Shown here piece after piece: positions 15,812 to 25,845 of a stretch of DNA of 25,845 nt (within the stretch, counting starts at the first letter, position 1; the number at the start of each line of letters is the position of its first letter). Source of the DNA: a virus; IMG/VR virus record IMGVR_UViG_3300028864_000089, positions 1 to 25,845 of that record. One strand, 5' to 3'. The position numbers and the translations under genes were made by a program. The notes beneath the pieces are model-generated. The model ran no database searches, had not been told where the DNA came from, and saw nothing but the letters and a program-made list of their open reading frames with translations.

Positions 15812-16774
15812 GTGAGACCACAAAATTACCTCAACAACAAAGATATATTGAAGGAGATACACAAGAGCAAAACCGCATACTGTTATTTTTCAAAACCTGA
15901 ATACGCCGACTACGACATCATCTTATCAAGCGTAGACGATATTCCTGCTTCACTTTTACCTACTACAGAGGTGATCGTTGATGCGGCTGGTAATGAAAAA
16001 ACTGTCGTGAACCCGCCAGCAGCGCAAGCCGCGAGGGCAAAGAGGCTCACAGTAGCAGCGCAAGACGCAGCGTTGCTTGAAGGAAAGAAACTAAAGGCTG
16101 ACGAGGTTGGCATCAGTCACGAAGATATCAAGGTCACTGATCTTGTCTTCCGTATCACATCTTGGGGTCATATTCCAGAGGCTCCGCCATCTGCTCCAAA
16201 GGTAGTCAAAGGTAAGAAATCTAAAGCCATTGTTATCGACGAAGATGCAGACATTGTGATGACCGAATACGACGAAGAAATTCCAGACATTGCGCCGCCT
16301 ACAGCCGCCGTCAAATATGTCAAACTCAACTTTCCACCATTTTTGCATTACAAGCTCAGAGAAGATGGCGACCTCGAAGTAGTAGGCAAAAGCCACTGGA
16401 AAGGCGACTTAATCACTGGTGAATTCAACCGGGATCATGGCAAAATCACCAATAAACTAGCTCTAATGTATATGAAATTGTGCGAGCGGTACGCTACACG
16501 CAGCAATTGGCGCGGTTACACGTACAATGATGAAATGCGGGCTCAGGCGTTGCTACAGCTGGCGCATATCGGGTTACAATTTGACGAATCTAAGTCAGCG
16601 AACCCGTTTGCGTATTACACAGCAGCTATCACCAACTCGTTTACTAGGGTTCTCAACATCGAGAAGAAAAACCAAAACATTCGCGATGACATTCTTGAAA
16701 TGAATAATTTAACACCTAGTTACAGTCGTCAAAATTCTGGTGTTGGTGATTACGGGCATGGCGCAGACGAATAA
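15812..16774 (+). CDS. 55: RNA polymerase late sigma factor gp55, enlarged form
   Basis: 320 residues, starting at GTG with AAAAGGA (15798-15804) 7 nt upstream. gp55 is the small sigma factor that directs host polymerase to late promoters. The N-terminus (NYLNNKDILKEIHKSK) matches the T4 start (NYVNNKELLQAIIDWK). Residues about 205-290 match its core: ITNKLALMYMKLCERYATRS, WRGYTYNDEM, FDESKSANPFAYYTAAITNS and a basic segment. T4 gp55 is 185 residues. Here about 180 residues, Lys/Ala-rich then acidic (EDADIVMTEYDEEIPDI), separate these two parts. The C-terminus is short and lacks an obvious hydrophobic motif like the clamp-binding tail of T4 gp55. The gene sits beside 46 and 47, a neighbourhood also seen in T4. 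Confidence 0.88.
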   Translation: MRPQNYLNNKDILKEIHKSKTAYCYFSKPEYADYDIILSSVDDIPASLLPTTEVIVDAAGNEKTVVNPPAAQAARAKRLTVAAQDAALLEGKKLKADEVGISHEDIKVTDLVFRITSWGHIPEAPPSAPKVVKGKKSKAIVIDEDADIVMTEYDEEIPDIAPPTAAVKYVKLNFPPFLHYKLREDGDLEVVGKSHWKGDLITGEFNRDHGKITNKLALMYMKLCERYATRSNWRGYTYNDEMRAQALLQLAHIGLQFDESKSANPFAYYTAAITNSFTRVLNIEKKNQNIRDDILEMNNLTPSYSRQNSGVGDYGHGADE

Positions 16775-20805: not shown

Positions 20806-20822
20806 GTGTGGCTCTGCCACAC
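20806..20822 (+). other. Perfect triloop hairpin directly after the nuclease stop
   Basis: GTGTGGC, loop TCT, GCCACAC: a 7-bp perfect stem starting on the base after the stop codon. No T-run follows, so it is more likely an RNA 3'-end stabiliser or processing site than an intrinsic terminator. Confidence 0.6.
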
Positions 20823-21247
20823 ACCCTCTAAGTATTATCCCGAGACCATCTCTAGCAATCAGTCGTCATCTTAGTTGAGTTATAGATTTGCCCAGAGTCT
20901 ATCATATCTGTGGTGCCAAGCCCCTCTACATGAATGTGGGCCGCTGGTGTAAGTGTGCTCAACACGATCTAATGCACTGCGATGAGCAGTCCTTAAAAAA
21001 TATCAACCCCGAGGTCCAAGGGCACCGGAGCGATGTTTTAGCATTAGAATATAGGTTTTAAAAGTGGTCGGCGGTTCATATAACGTAATCCCGCCGAGTC
21101 GAGGACAAGTGCTAACTAACGAGTCCTAACACAACGACGAACACGCCTGGATACTGAGTCGGCAATCAGTGATGGAGACATAGACAATCCCTACATCGAA
21201 AATTTCAGAAGTTAGAGTAAACAGCGACGGCAAAAATTACACGTATA

Positions 21248-21278
21248 AGGTAGTCCAGATTTTTTTTCTGGCCTACCT
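21248..21278 (+). other. Long hairpin with an all-T loop
   Basis: AGGTAGTCCAGA (21248-21259) pairs with TCTGGCCTACCT (21267-21278) with one mismatch (T21254/C21272), around a loop of seven T. The T-run is in the loop and not after the stem, so this is not a normal terminator in either direction. Confidence 0.6.
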
Positions 21279-21317
21279 ACATTACCGAGTTATGGCTTCT
21301 GGCAAAATAAGTGCTAC

Positions 21318-21336
21318 GCAGCAGCTCTGCTGCTGC
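21318..21336 (+). other. Perfect 8-bp triloop hairpin GCAGCAGC-TCT-GCTGCTGC
   Basis: A perfect stem with the same TCT triloop and GC-TCT-GC core as the hairpin at 20806-20822. No T-run follows. It may be part of a structured RNA or a site for a DNA- or RNA-binding protein. Confidence 0.6.
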
Positions 21337-21458
21337 TGGGAAAGACGCATTAGTAAATAATAGCTTTATTCAAATCAAGTGTATGTATTCTCTTCAAGTT
21401 CATTACAGTTTACAGCGTATATGAAATGAAAAGGCTCAAGCGATTTATCGCGCAGAGC

Positions 21459-21479
21459 TAAAAACGCGAAGCGTTTTTA
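21459..21479 (+). terminator. Terminator-like hairpin, symmetrical
   Basis: TAAAAACGC, loop GAA, GCGTTTTTA: a 9-bp stem whose 3' arm ends in five T (or five A on the other side). It could act in either direction. It is a natural 3' boundary for the structured region. The short GC part makes strong termination uncertain. Confidence 0.5.
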
Positions 21480-21506
21480 CAACAGGATAGCAAATAAAAT
21501 AGAAAC

Positions 21507-21533
21507 CCTTTGAAGTACAAAGGAATTTCTTTG
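21507..21533 (+). promoter_or_regulatory. Two mutually exclusive small hairpins before the DUF5710-like gene
   Basis: CAAAG at 21518-21522 can pair with the upstream CCTTTG (21507-21512, as CAAAGG) or with the downstream CTTTG (21529-21533). The two structures exclude each other, as in an attenuator or leader switch. The stems are short (6 and 5 bp), so this may be chance. Confidence 0.25.
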
Positions 21534-21561
21534 GCTGATTGTCTGCTGTGGTAAATACTGT

Positions 21562-21780: not shown

Positions 21781-21797
21781 GAATTCAAGACAAAAGA

Positions 21798-21825
21798 AAA
21801 GACTGTTTGCACAGTCTTTCTTTTT
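21798..21825. terminator. Bidirectional intrinsic terminator between convergent genes
   Basis: AAAGACTGT (21798-21806), loop TTGC, ACAGTCTTT (21811-21819), then C and five T. On the minus strand the stem is followed by TCTTTTG. It sits between the stop of the rightward DUF5710-like gene (21780) and that of the leftward small gene (21837), so it can end both transcripts. Confidence 0.85.
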
Positions 21826-21836
21826 GGGTGAGCTGA

Positions 21837-22049
21837 TTAGAAAAAGTTGAGTCCGGTCTTCTTGGTTGTTTCGATGTTCTCTTTGATAATTGAGGCAACA
21901 AATTCTCGTTCATGTGATGATAACAGCATTGCTGAATCGTACGACAATCCGCCACGCATGTACCAGCTAAATTTTAACGCTTCTTCCTTTAAGGCTTTTG
22001 CCTCTTTCTCTAGCTGATTGATATATTTTTCGATCCGATCAGCATCCAT
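21837..22049 (-). CDS. Small tail/baseplate assembly protein, likely also made as a -1 frameshift extension of gp26
   Basis: 70 residues from the ATG at 22049. A TTG two codons earlier is possible, but it is only 3 nt from AAGG, whereas the ATG is 9 nt away. The sequence has an N-terminal helix (ADRIEKYINQLEKEAKALKE), then FSWYMRGGLSYDSAMLLSSH and KENIETTKKTGLNFF. I associate this pattern with a conserved small gene after gp26 in marine T4-like phages, where T4 has gp51 (baseplate hub assembly catalyst). The C-terminal W-x-x-R-G-G-x-S-Y pattern also recalls the T part of tail-assembly chaperones. The frame is open back through a perfect slippery site at 22067-22073, so a 354-residue gp26 fusion is possible. 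Confidence 0.75.
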   Translation of the reverse strand: MDADRIEKYINQLEKEAKALKEEALKFSWYMRGGLSYDSAMLLSSHEREFVASIIKENIETTKKTGLNFF

Positions 22050-22060
22050 CGACAAAAGCC

Positions 22061-22900
22061 TTAAGCGAAAAAATTAGCGTAGTCGAATACAACTGACAAA
22101 TCGAATTTTTCATGACAATCATCACAATCAATGCTGACTGGCTTAATTGCTGCTACTTTAGCTGCCTCTTCAAGCCATGTCCGAACAGCTTTAGGAATAG
22201 CACGATCAGCACTCTTATAGAATTCAGCAATAAACACTGGGTTAGATACTTTGTTCCCATCTGGGGTTTGAATGTAATTAGTGCTATCTACCATAACCAT
22301 TAGATTCAAATCAACAAGCTTTTGCAAATGTGTTTGATATCGAGCAGACTTTTCTTCGTCACTAAGACTATCGTCTCGTATAGTGTCTAGAATTCGCTGC
22401 TCTTCAAAGTTTGCCATATTGGTTTTGTTGACGCTAAAATATGGCTGTGGCTTCATAGCAATTGTTAGCCCGTTCATCTGAACCGTATTGGTGTAATCAG
22501 GTGATGTAATATTGCCTAACACTTGATTCAAATTGATAGTGTATTCATTCTTAGCTTTACAGTGAGGGCATGTCGATTCGATGTCCATATTGCTACCATA
22601 GCTAGCAACACGTATTGCAATCAGCAAAGCATCTACGTCAATGCTAGGCATATTCCATGCATCTGTTATATTTGGACAACAGCTTTGCACGATAGACACT
22701 ATGCCAGCACCGTTTAACAACGCATCAGGGGTACGAATAGTGATTTCGTCTTTTGTCGTCATCGAAAGCACTGGCAATTCGCCAGTCACTGGCAGGCTTA
22801 ACGCACCGTCAAGCCAAAATTGACCTTTGCTTGGCAAAGTGAAGTGAATGATCGGCTGTCTAAAGAAACCAGCAAGTGGATTTTGTGATTGTTGCTCCAT
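22061..22900 (-). CDS. 26: gp26-like baseplate hub / tail assembly protein
   Basis: 279 residues from the ATG at 22900. An upstream in-frame ATG at 22945 would give 294 residues but lies before the late promoter (22926-22933); the 22900 start has GAGGA about 8 nt upstream and is preferred. The N-terminus has LPSKGQFW, typical of the T4 baseplate protein family (gp26; T4 form 208 residues). Two Cys pairs, CPHC (111, 114) and CDDC (259, 262), could form a zinc ribbon. A second conserved stretch is TKDEITIRTPDALLNG. The protein is thought to act in hub assembly. The gene is head-to-head with the tape measure gene, and its last codons contain a -1 slippery heptamer, as in tail chaperone genes of other phages. 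Confidence 0.88.
   Translation of the reverse strand: MEQQSQNPLAGFFRQPIIHFTLPSKGQFWLDGALSLPVTGELPVLSMTTKDEITIRTPDALLNGAGIVSIVQSCCPNITDAWNMPSIDVDALLIAIRVASYGSNMDIESTCPHCKAKNEYTINLNQVLGNITSPDYTNTVQMNGLTIAMKPQPYFSVNKTNMANFEEQRILDTIRDDSLSDEEKSARYQTHLQKLVDLNLMVMVDSTNYIQTPDGNKVSNPVFIAEFYKSADRAIPKAVRTWLEEAAKVAAIKPVSIDCDDCHEKFDLSVVFDYANFFA
22067..22073 (-). promoter_or_regulatory. Predicted -1 ribosomal frameshift site (U UUU UUC)
   Basis: In the gp26 frame the end reads GCT AAT TTT TTC GCT TAA, so T-TTT-TTC has the X-XXY-YYZ phase needed for tandem -1 slippage. After slippage the frame runs CGC TTA AGG CTT TTG TCG ATG into the 70-residue gene without a stop. The -1 frame has a TAA at 22076-22074, just before the site, so the open window fits the slippery site exactly. 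Confidence 0.65.
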
Positions 22901-22911
22901 TTTTAAATCCT

Positions 22912-22919
22912 CATAAATA
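22912..22919 (+). promoter_or_regulatory. Late promoter element for the tape measure gene
   Basis: CATAAATA on the plus strand, 40 nt before the ATG at 22960, which has AAGGG (22946-22950) as its ribosome site. It is the left half of a near-palindrome shared with the leftward gp26 promoter. Confidence 0.65.
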
Positions 22920-22925
22920 TATGTG

Positions 22926-22933
22926 TATTTATG
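22926..22933 (-). promoter_or_regulatory. Late promoter element for gp26
   Basis: CATAAATA on the minus strand, 25 nt before the gp26 ATG at 22900. It forms an inverted repeat with the plus-strand element at 22912-22919, separated by 6 nt. Confidence 0.7.
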
Positions 22934-22959: not shown

Positions 22960-25488
22960 ATGGCTACAACTGACGAACTACTATCTGAGATGCTCGAAAT
23001 GATGCGTGGTGGCACCGGCCTGTCTGGGGGTAGTTATCCACCACGAGACGGTCCTTCTCCTGAAGGTGTGACTAAACGTTTCACTCAGCTTGAAGCAGTT
23101 ATTAAAAACGCAGAAGCAGCTCACAAGCATCTCACAGAAAACATCAAGGACAATTCTGACGAATTTGCTCTAGCTAGCAAACTTCAAGGTCAACAACAAC
23201 TCAATTTGATTGCTCTGAATAAAGCATTTAAGGAAGGCAAAATATCTGCTGATAAGTACCGCCAAGAACTAGGCAAGTTAGAGCGTGAAGTCGAAGATCT
23301 TGGCGATGTGATGGGCGACCTTAACGATCAGTCGAACAAAGCGTTAAAGAAACAAATTGAAAAGGGCAAAAAAGACGCGGATGCATTAAAAAAATACGAC
23401 GAGCTAACAAAATCTATCAAAGGGTTGATGACAGTCTCGGGGTCAGTTAAGCTTGCATTTGCTGGGTTGAATGCAGTAGGTGCAACTGCTGGTAAATTTG
23501 TGTCGGGCATACAAAATAATGCCTCTGGGATGGAATTGTCGTCGGGTATTATGACAGCTAGCATTGATGCTGCTGGCAGTGCTGGTAAGATGGCAGGTGA
23601 TGCAATAGGGACTGTTGGTGGAGCCATGACTACCGCAGGCGGTAAGGTAAAATATTTAGGCCTAGCTGTTGCTGGTGCAGGTATGTTGATTAGTGGTTTT
23701 TCTGACAGCCTGTCTAAGTTAGCAAAGTTTGGGGTTAATGTCCTGCAAAAAGAAGTAGAGAAAACGATTAAGAGCTTCAATGATGCTTCGTCAGCGGGAG
23801 CATTATTTACTGACGGCATGACCGGGATGCGTAATGCATCAGGGGATGCAGGATTAACAGTAGAACAATTTTCTGGGGTGTTAAAATCTCATTCGTCGAC
23901 GATAGCTGCTGCTGGATTAGGGGTATCAGACGGCGCTAAAAAAATGGGAGCTGCCTTAAAAGCTGGTGGTAATCCGATGCGAGATCAACTGTTAAATTTA
24001 GGGTATAGCTTTGAGGAGCAAGCAGGTCTAGTAGCAGAGACTATGCAGCGTATGAAAGGATCAACAGTTGGACCGCTAGGATCGAGCAATGCTGTTATTG
24101 CTGAACAGACGCAAAAATACGCAGAAAATCTTCGAGTAATAACAGCAATTACAGGAGAAGATGCTAAGAAAAAATCAGAAGCAGTTAAGCAGCAGATGAA
24201 CCAGTTAGCGTTTCAACAAAAGCTAGCACAAAAGTCTCCAGAACAGCAAGCTGCTATTGGTAGAGCAATGGAAAACATGTCTGACATTCAACGTAAGAAT
24301 TTTATGGACATGGTAAATTTTGGTAGTGTTATTAACCGAGAAGGTGCAGTATTTAACTCGGCTAGCGCAGGAATGCGAGATATGACGTTGCAATCGCTTA
24401 GCGATTACAATAACGGAATAATGGACGAGCACACAGAACGAGCCAATCAGGCTAAGAACGGTGAGCAAGTGCAGAAAGATATGCTAGCTAACACTTCTAT
24501 CGCAACCGCAGGCGCTGCAGGATTAGGAGGACTAGTTGGTGGACTAGCAGAGTCTATGGGGAAAGAATTGCAGTACCGTATTGCTTGGACTAAGGAAGCA
24601 CAAGCTAATGCTGAAAAAGGTGTAGCAGGTCAAAAAACTACTACAGACGATTTAACTGCTGGAGTACATTCTGCAGCGATTGCGGCTCAAGGGTTAGCGG
24701 TTGATTTACAAACAACGTTGACTCCAGCGATTAAGGCGTATGCAAAGGTTGCTGCTGAAATTCTAGAAGGAGTTAAAAAGCAATTAGAAGACTTAGGGTT
24801 AGGTAGTAAAGATAAAAGTGCTGATAAAAAAGTCACTGACGATTTAGGTAAAGATGTTTCTAAGGTAGGCCTCGGGTTAGCAGCAGTTGGTGCAGGTCTA
24901 TTTGTGTTAGGTGGATTAGCTACTGCAACGGGCATCGGTGCAGCAGCTGGAGTTCCGATGATGGCATACGGCGGAAGTATGGTTAGCGGTGGGTTAACCA
25001 CCGCTACTGTAGGCGGTGGTATATCTGCATTAGGTTACGCTAACGGTGGCATATCCTCTGGCTCACCAGATGGTCACCTAGAAAAACTTCACGGCACTGA
25101 ACTGATTGTGCCGATGGTAGGTGGATCACTCGATATGGCGTCACAGGGGTACGCCGACTTGATGAAGACAATGGACAAAACTAGTTTGCCGTCATCGTCA
25201 ACAGTGACTAATATGTCTAGTAGTGCATCAAGCACTAGCATGATTTCAAACATTATGCAAAAACTGTCTATAATGCCAGCCGAAACTGCGGCTGCATCGG
25301 CAGTAATGAACCCTACTTCAACAAACAGTTCAGATTCAAGCACCTTAACAGAGCTAAAGAAAATCAGCGAAATCATATCTGAATCAGTTAAGACATCAGA
25401 ACAAACATTAGCAGCGCAACAGCAATTAGTGTCATTAGCAGGCGATCAAATCCGTGCTCTAGACATTTTAAGTAAGCATATGTCCTAA
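22960..25488 (+). CDS. Tail tape measure protein
   Basis: 842 residues. Residues about 45-160 are charged coiled coil (LEAVIKNAEAAHKHLTENIK, LGKLEREVEDLGDVMGDLND). Long Ala/Gly-rich helical stretches follow, with a hydrophobic segment near 210-240 and another near 640-690. At residues 693-719 is the motif YANGGISSGSPDGHLEKLHG then TELIVP, a signature near the C-terminus of many phage tape measure proteins (GGI-x-x-G-x-x-G-x-L-x-x-L-H-G-T-E-x-x-V-P). T4 gp29 (590 residues) is the functional equivalent. The length sets the tail length, so this phage should have a somewhat longer tail than T4 if the rule holds. Its neighbour across the divergent promoter is the putative tail chaperone pair, which fits the usual pairing of chaperone and tape measure. 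Confidence 0.85.
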   Translation: MATTDELLSEMLEMMRGGTGLSGGSYPPRDGPSPEGVTKRFTQLEAVIKNAEAAHKHLTENIKDNSDEFALASKLQGQQQLNLIALNKAFKEGKISADKYRQELGKLEREVEDLGDVMGDLNDQSNKALKKQIEKGKKDADALKKYDELTKSIKGLMTVSGSVKLAFAGLNAVGATAGKFVSGIQNNASGMELSSGIMTASIDAAGSAGKMAGDAIGTVGGAMTTAGGKVKYLGLAVAGAGMLISGFSDSLSKLAKFGVNVLQKEVEKTIKSFNDASSAGALFTDGMTGMRNASGDAGLTVEQFSGVLKSHSSTIAAAGLGVSDGAKKMGAALKAGGNPMRDQLLNLGYSFEEQAGLVAETMQRMKGSTVGPLGSSNAVIAEQTQKYAENLRVITAITGEDAKKKSEAVKQQMNQLAFQQKLAQKSPEQQAAIGRAMENMSDIQRKNFMDMVNFGSVINREGAVFNSASAGMRDMTLQSLSDYNNGIMDEHTERANQAKNGEQVQKDMLANTSIATAGAAGLGGLVGGLAESMGKELQYRIAWTKEAQANAEKGVAGQKTTTDDLTAGVHSAAIAAQGLAVDLQTTLTPAIKAYAKVAAEILEGVKKQLEDLGLGSKDKSADKKVTDDLGKDVSKVGLGLAAVGAGLFVLGGLATATGIGAAAGVPMMAYGGSMVSGGLTTATVGGGISALGYANGGISSGSPDGHLEKLHGTELIVPMVGGSLDMASQGYADLMKTMDKTSLPSSSTVTNMSSSASSTSMISNIMQKLSIMPAETAAASAVMNPTSTNSSDSSTLTELKKISEIISESVKTSEQTLAAQQQLVSLAGDQIRALDILSKHMS

Positions 25489-25517: not shown

Positions 25518-25845
25518 ATGGCCGGATGGAAAAAGCACTTTAAGGCAGCAAACTTAGGCGGAAACGTTAGCCCTATTCACGGCGGGCGCGACACTACATC
25601 AGTAGCCTCCGCATCCTTTGGCTTCAAAAATTATCAAAGTCACCTGCCAGATGTCTATATCGGGCACCCAAATCGTATTGAACGATACAATCAGTATGAG
25701 CAAATGGATGCTGATAGTGAAGTCAACGCAGCGTTAGACATCCTAGCTGAATTTTCAACGCAGAAAAACACAGAAAACAACACGGCGTTCCATATTGACT
25801 TCCACGAAACACCGACTGACAACGAAATCAAGATTGTTAAAGAAC
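25518..25845 (+). CDS. 20: Portal vertex protein gp20, 5' part only
   Basis: 109 codons are visible before the window ends (T4 gp20 is 524 residues). The segment SHLPDVYIGHPNRIERYNQY followed by EQMDADSEVNAALDILAEF and STQ is the highly conserved N-terminal block of T4-type portal proteins. gp20 forms the dodecameric ring at one capsid vertex through which DNA is packaged and to which the tail joins. It starts a rightward late gene set that probably continues with 21, 22 and 23 outside the window. Confidence 0.95.
   Translation, partial: MAGWKKHFKAANLGGNVSPIHGGRDTTSVASASFGFKNYQSHLPDVYIGHPNRIERYNQYEQMDADSEVNAALDILAEFSTQKNTENNTAFHIDFHETPTDNEIKIVKE

Follow-up and report, generated by a model that had tools for sequence, protein, structure and literature searches.

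A predicted −1 frameshift at the end of the gp26-like tail-assembly chaperone gene in jumbo phages and cyanophages

The gp26-like locus and its neighbours

The window, the whole 25,845-nucleotide stretch of viral DNA analysed here (IMGVR_UViG_3300028864_000089), carries a gp26-like coding sequence on the minus strand (22061–22900). It starts with an ATG at 22900, ends with a TAA at 22063–22061 and encodes 279 residues, the putative short form of the chaperone (TAC-N). A Shine-Dalgarno-like GAGG can be read 8 nt before the ATG (22909–22912, minus strand). The product matches the Pfam family PF12322 (T4_baseplate, E=2e-17) with 63.8 bits, above the gathering cut-off of 24.5, as well as the baseplate hub family phrog_150 (E=3e-17). 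Its AlphaFold2 model, based on 30 aligned sequences, has a pLDDT of 86.7. The best matches of the model among viral structures are T4-like baseplate hub assembly proteins, with E-values down to 2e-23; a fold search of the PDB gave no match. Relatives in named phages belong to jumbo myoviruses, including Atu_ph07, Phosso, PA5oct, 121Q, RaK2 and Munch, with GAP32, CBB, XacN1, SCTP-2, Vibrio 2.275 and others adding to the group. A scan of viral contigs with the window's gp26-like protein alone returned no match.

Downstream of the stop codon, an ATG-initiated ORF of 70 residues (21837–22049, minus strand) occupies the −1 frame relative to the gp26-like gene. An intrinsic-terminator-like hairpin (21797–21820, minus strand), with a mirror copy on the plus strand, lies directly 3′ of the stop of this frame.

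On the other side of the gp26-like gene lies an 842-aa ORF (22960–25488, plus strand), which the preliminary description had called the tape measure gene. The ORF does adjoin the gp26-like gene, but is divergent from it, and its putative identity is taken from its position and from the RaK2 gene at the same position, noted as tape-measure-like. Neither Pfam nor PHROG gave a match for it, although homologues lie divergent from gp26 in 61 of the loci fetched; the ORF is possibly a member of an unrecognised tape measure family. It is followed by a portal-like ORF at 25518.

Between the gp26-like and putative tape measure genes, CATAAATA occurs on both strands (22912–22919, plus; 22926–22933, minus) and resembles the T4 late promoter TATAAATA. 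Elsewhere in the window, a gene encodes a homologue of a late sigma factor (15812–16774; phrog_12791, E=7e-76). A 755-nt stretch between the PDDEXK/RusA-like nuclease gene and the DUF5710 gene (20806–21560) has no listed ORF of at least 60 aa, and no Rfam match, tRNA or repeats were found in it.

Slip site and −1 frame

The 3′ end of the gp26-like coding sequence reads AAT TTT TTC GCT TAA (minus strand). It contains the slippery heptamer T_TTT_TTC (22067–22073), in exact X_XXY_YYZ phase with the gp26-like frame. The −1 frame is closed by a TAA codon just 5′ of the heptamer. From the heptamer onwards it is open for 78 codons to the stop at 21837 (21837–22073, minus strand), running through the small ORF. 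A shift at this site would add the C-terminal domain of a long form (TAC-NC) of 354 residues, with ANFFRLRLLSMDAD as the junction peptide. The phase of the heptamer, the closed frame before it and the 354-residue length of the fused frame had all been stated in the preliminary description, and each is borne out. The −1 frame peptide runs FFRLRLLSMDAD...GLNFF. Modelled apart from the gp26-like part, this domain is predicted by AlphaFold2 to be helical (pLDDT 88.7), and a Foldseek search with it gave only weak matches, to small uncharacterised phage proteins.

As a background sample we used 245 other open frames of at least 200 codons from the sequences fetched. Within the last 15 codons, 29 of these frames have an in-phase X_XXY_YYZ heptamer, while in 49 the −1 frame is open for at least 50 codons past the stop. 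Only two frames combine both features. Because one of the two (locus L019) duplicates the gp26 of the window itself, the background rate is about 1/245. The coincidence of heptamer and open −1 frame at the gp26-like end is not due to chance.

We surveyed 202 homologous loci, grouped into 76 clusters at 70% identity. The homologues were retrieved by similarity to the whole of gp26 or by peptides outside the slip site. Since the survey counts come from related sequences, no exact probabilities are given for them. This comparison of the gp26 junction across T4-like phages, proposed with the original prediction, reveals an in-phase heptamer of TTTTTT followed by C, T or G in 74 of the 76 clusters (TTTTTTC in 72, TTTTTTT and TTTTTTG in one each). 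It extends over jumbo phages (121Q, RaK2, PA5oct, Atu_ph07), cyanophages and Aeh1-type phages, and the −1 frame is open through the heptamer in every locus among those listed. In Pseudomonas phage Cygsa01 (L022, 2309–2482), the layout of gp26 and small gene is present without a slippery heptamer (ATT TTC ACC TAA TG); this phage may therefore use reinitiation instead.

The codon 5′ of the Phe-Phe pair ends with T in all 74 clusters, and the pair itself is coded exactly TTT TTC in 72 of them, compared with 4 of the 28 other Phe-Phe pairs of the same genes. At other positions of these genes, Phe is TTT in 68% of cases. The first −1 residue after the heptamer is Arg in 70 of 74 clusters, while the 0-frame residue varies (A, G, V, E or D). 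Similarly, the 0-frame stop is found anywhere from 1 to 21 codons past Phe-Phe, while the register of the −1 domain is constant. The conserved motifs of the −1 frame are FFRxRLL...WYMRGG...ETTKKSGLPFF.

We also considered a Shine-Dalgarno-like stimulator 5′ of the heptamer. It was rejected, as such a sequence is present in 8 of 74 clusters against 6.8 expected.

RNA structure downstream of the heptamer and predicted expression of the −1 frame

A candidate stimulatory stem follows the slip site. The RNA of positions 22064–21989 folds as a 14-bp stem between UUAAGGCUUUUGUC (5′ arm, 22051–22064, minus strand) and GGCAAAAGCCUUAA (3′ arm, 21989–22002, minus strand), with an inner hairpin GCUGAU...AUCAGC in its loop (22013–22043, minus strand) in the minimum free energy fold. 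The GC-rich part of the stem lies 6 nt past the heptamer, within the spacing of about 5–9 nt used as a criterion for −1 stimulators, and the stem is predicted to act as one. The 85-nt fold (21980–22064) has a z-score of −4.6, and the sliding z-score profile stays around 0 upstream and dips directly 3′ of the heptamer. A 60-nt downstream fold of the window gives a z-score of −0.2, which is uninformative because the 3′ arm of the stem is located further downstream.

The structure exceeds what the encoded protein requires. Measured against synonymous recodings in which the −1 protein is unchanged, the 93 nt downstream of the heptamer have a mean z-score of −2.50 over 74 clusters, against −0.24 for the rest of the −1 ORF and −0.22 for upstream gp26. 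In the window the value is −3.6, and none of 150 synonymous recodings is as stable. RaK2, Munch, PA5oct and GAP32 have no excess downstream stability in this test.

Covariation was assessed for a 13-pair helix in a gap-free alignment of 60 sequences, using 500 shuffles. Paired cells amount to 78.2% (69.5 in shuffles), double-changed cells to 58 (18.8 expected) and covariation to 0.252 (0.137 in shuffles), with these shuffle-based counts inflated by the kinship of the sequences. No shuffle matches the helix in pairing, double changes or covariation, and all three drop when the helix is slid along the alignment. The best stem of each cluster commonly begins 2–7 nt past the heptamer, while 3′ arms are register-shifted or relocated. 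Complementarity is kept in a shifted register in L044 (GCCTCTTAAC/GTTAAGAGGC), with a nearer 3′ partner of AGCTCTTAAC in L039 and L061, and in short-loop hairpins in L098 and L099. The cyanophage locus L020 has the stem TATGTCTCA/TGAGGCATA. RNAalifold found no single consensus fold in the 60-sequence alignment, for which the long loop and the register shifts are the probable reason, and Rfam gave no match.

The conserved heptamer, the −1 frame and the downstream RNA stem strongly support the −1 programmed frameshift and the chaperone pair of the lambda G/GT kind that the preliminary description had proposed for the gp26/gp51 locus. We infer that a −1 shift at T_TTT_TTC very probably gives rise to two forms of a tail-assembly chaperone. 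Most ribosomes would terminate at the TAA two codons past TTT TTC, yielding the 279-aa TAC-N. Some would slip back by one base on the heptamer, aided by the stem-loop with its GC-rich part 6 nt downstream, and tRNA-Phe would re-pair in both the P and A sites. In these ribosomes, translation would continue in the −1 frame as far as 21837 and yield the 354-aa TAC-NC, which has an additional helical domain. Judging from lambda G/GT, TAC-N may coat the tape measure protein, and TAC-NC, at a low ratio, may bring in tube subunits or other proteins of the tail.

The small ORF is the point at which other readings enter. Early in-frame −1 starts are present in 45 of 74 clusters, so a frameshift fusion could be accompanied by some independently initiated small protein. 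We regard such a combination as improbable, since these starts are not conserved and no ribosome binding site is apparent: the first ATG in the −1 frame is scattered from codon 3 to 39 over the 74 clusters, in 29 clusters −1 codons 3–13 include neither ATG nor GTG nor TTG, and a Shine-Dalgarno-like 4-mer precedes the early −1 starts in none of the clusters.

The same observations make it very unlikely that two separate genes are present, with a 70-aa protein initiated independently, either by termination-reinitiation or at a ribosome binding site of its own, and with the T-rich heptamer as a codon-usage accident at a conserved Phe-Phe. That arrangement would be in line with a TTG and an ATG soon past the heptamer in the window, with an in-frame ATG as the sixth −1 codon in the cyanophage loci listed, and with the separate-gene annotation of several relatives. 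However, the conserved FFRxRLL lies upstream of the ATG of the window's 70-aa ORF, and the synonymous choice at Phe-Phe as well as the RNA stem would be left without explanation. In the records of PA5oct (L003, 2330–2555) and RaK2 (L006, 2321–2540), the −1 frame domain is present without an annotated gene. Our preferred reading of the 70-aa "gene" is that it forms the C-terminal domain of the long chaperone and is probably not translated on its own.

Transcriptional slippage, in which the long form would come from a mixed mRNA population made by RNA polymerase slipping along the T run, is hardly credible: T runs can cause slippage, which gives two length variants in other genes, but the run here is short, mostly six T, the ribosomal codon phase is kept, and a selected RNA stem downstream of the site would be expected where the ribosome slips, not the polymerase.

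Two chaperone forms in T4 and other known systems

The predicted frameshift at T_TTT_TTC has parallels in well-known phages. The heptamer of lambda G/GT is G_GGA_AAG, which differs from that of the window, where in addition a stem-loop follows the site. P2 E/E′ is, like the window locus, a frameshift pair in a contractile-tailed phage, with the poly-T site T_TTT_TTG. For T4-like phages, the abstract of Vladimirov et al. 2022 reportedly describes a frameshift conserved in several groups, with T4 using genes 26 and 51.

The T4-like TAC-N/TAC-NC pair resembles the window locus in its PF12322 family, its position by tail genes, its poly-T slippery site and its C-terminal domain. The difference lies in the origin of the long form, for which the window phage and its relatives would use a frameshift and T4 a second gene. 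Sequence comparison indicates that T4 gp26 is the short form and that its paralogue gp51 carries the C-terminal domain in the same reading frame. Residues 1–201 of the 249-aa gp51 match PF12322, the Pfam family of T4 gp26 (E=4e-52), and in a profile comparison gp26 and gp51 are related with a probability of 99%. The phrog_150 match covers gp51 to its end, including the part missing from gp26. phrog_634 is matched by the gp51 tail as well as by the phiAS5 peptide encoded in the −1 frame (E=2e-15) and by a small cyanophage protein. The cyanophage/Aeh1-type −1 domain aligns with the gp51 tail with a probability of 98%; the jumbo-type domain has a weak similarity to it (hhalign probability 67% over 33 columns), while the full jumbo fusion matches the cyanophage-type fusion with 99% over 268 columns. 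The 70-aa ORF is not the counterpart of gp51 as a whole: residues 1–201 of gp51 are PF12322, and only its C-terminal domain would correspond to the ORF. gp51 is needed for T4 assembly and is absent from the particle (PMC3004832).

A frameshift in T4 gene 26 itself was rejected: its Phe-Phe is TTC TTT, a heptamer is absent, and gene 25 follows, with gene 51 divergent. Acj9, Aeromonas 31, phiP4-3, SFHK24 and RB43 likewise carry gp26 and gp51 genes and no TTTTTT site at the gp26 end. The short and long forms of these T4-type phages would therefore come from two genes, 26 and 51 in T4. The earlier expectation that T4-like phages keep the frameshift in gp26/gp51 is supported by the jumbo, cyanophage and Aeh1-type phages (heptamer in 74/76 clusters), and fails for T4 and the five other Straboviridae examined that carry a separate gp51 gene. 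In RB43 (L207, 1501–3187), gp51-like, gp26-like and gp25-like genes are in tandem on one strand, while T4 gene 51 is divergent from 26. The tandem order is a possible trace of the gp26/gp51 duplication.

A 2016 review described G-T frameshifting as widely conserved among long-tailed phages "except T4", and noted that certain tailed phages shift seemingly without stimulators (PMC5009743). According to the papers that cite it, Vladimirov et al. 2022 had reported slippery sites in T4-like tail-assembly chaperones. The PRFect paper cites Vladimirov, Gautam & Davidson 2022 (PMID 34826709) for the finding that in some T4-like phages a short gene and a fused long gene take the place of frameshifting (PMC10885494). 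In the paper on phage Adele, the work is the reference for poly-T slippery sites of T4-like TAC-N genes (PMC12846349). The latter phage, of the Vandenendeviridae/Andersonviridae, also has a −1 frameshift close to where its short chaperone gene ends and a downstream stretch that is often annotated separately, but belongs to another phage group and uses a GTTTTT motif (PMC12846349). On the word of these citing papers, frameshifting in the gp26-type family of T4-like phages is already reported, and the statement in the preliminary description that none was described at this locus is incorrect. New here are the window's member of the family, the breadth of the survey and the probable stimulatory RNA stem. 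We found no mention of a stimulatory stem at a gp26-type site in the searchable literature; an earlier description is possible.

We consider it likely that a conserved but structurally mobile stem, with a fixed 5′ arm a few nt past the heptamer and a 3′ arm that shifts between lineages while complementarity is kept, drives the gp26-type frameshift in T4-like jumbo phages and cyanophages, unlike the stimulator-free lambda type, and that T4-type phages swapped it for the gp26/gp51 duplication. This supports one conserved tail-assembly chaperone solution across T4-like phages, cyanophages and jumbo myoviruses, and fits an explanation of why T4 looked exceptional. A large number of "hypothetical" ORFs, some 40–70 aa long, would gain a function and ought to be annotated as gp26 ends, and the annotation of PA5oct and RaK2 should be extended with the −1 frame domain. 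Because of the stem-loop, the ratio between the two forms can be tested directly.
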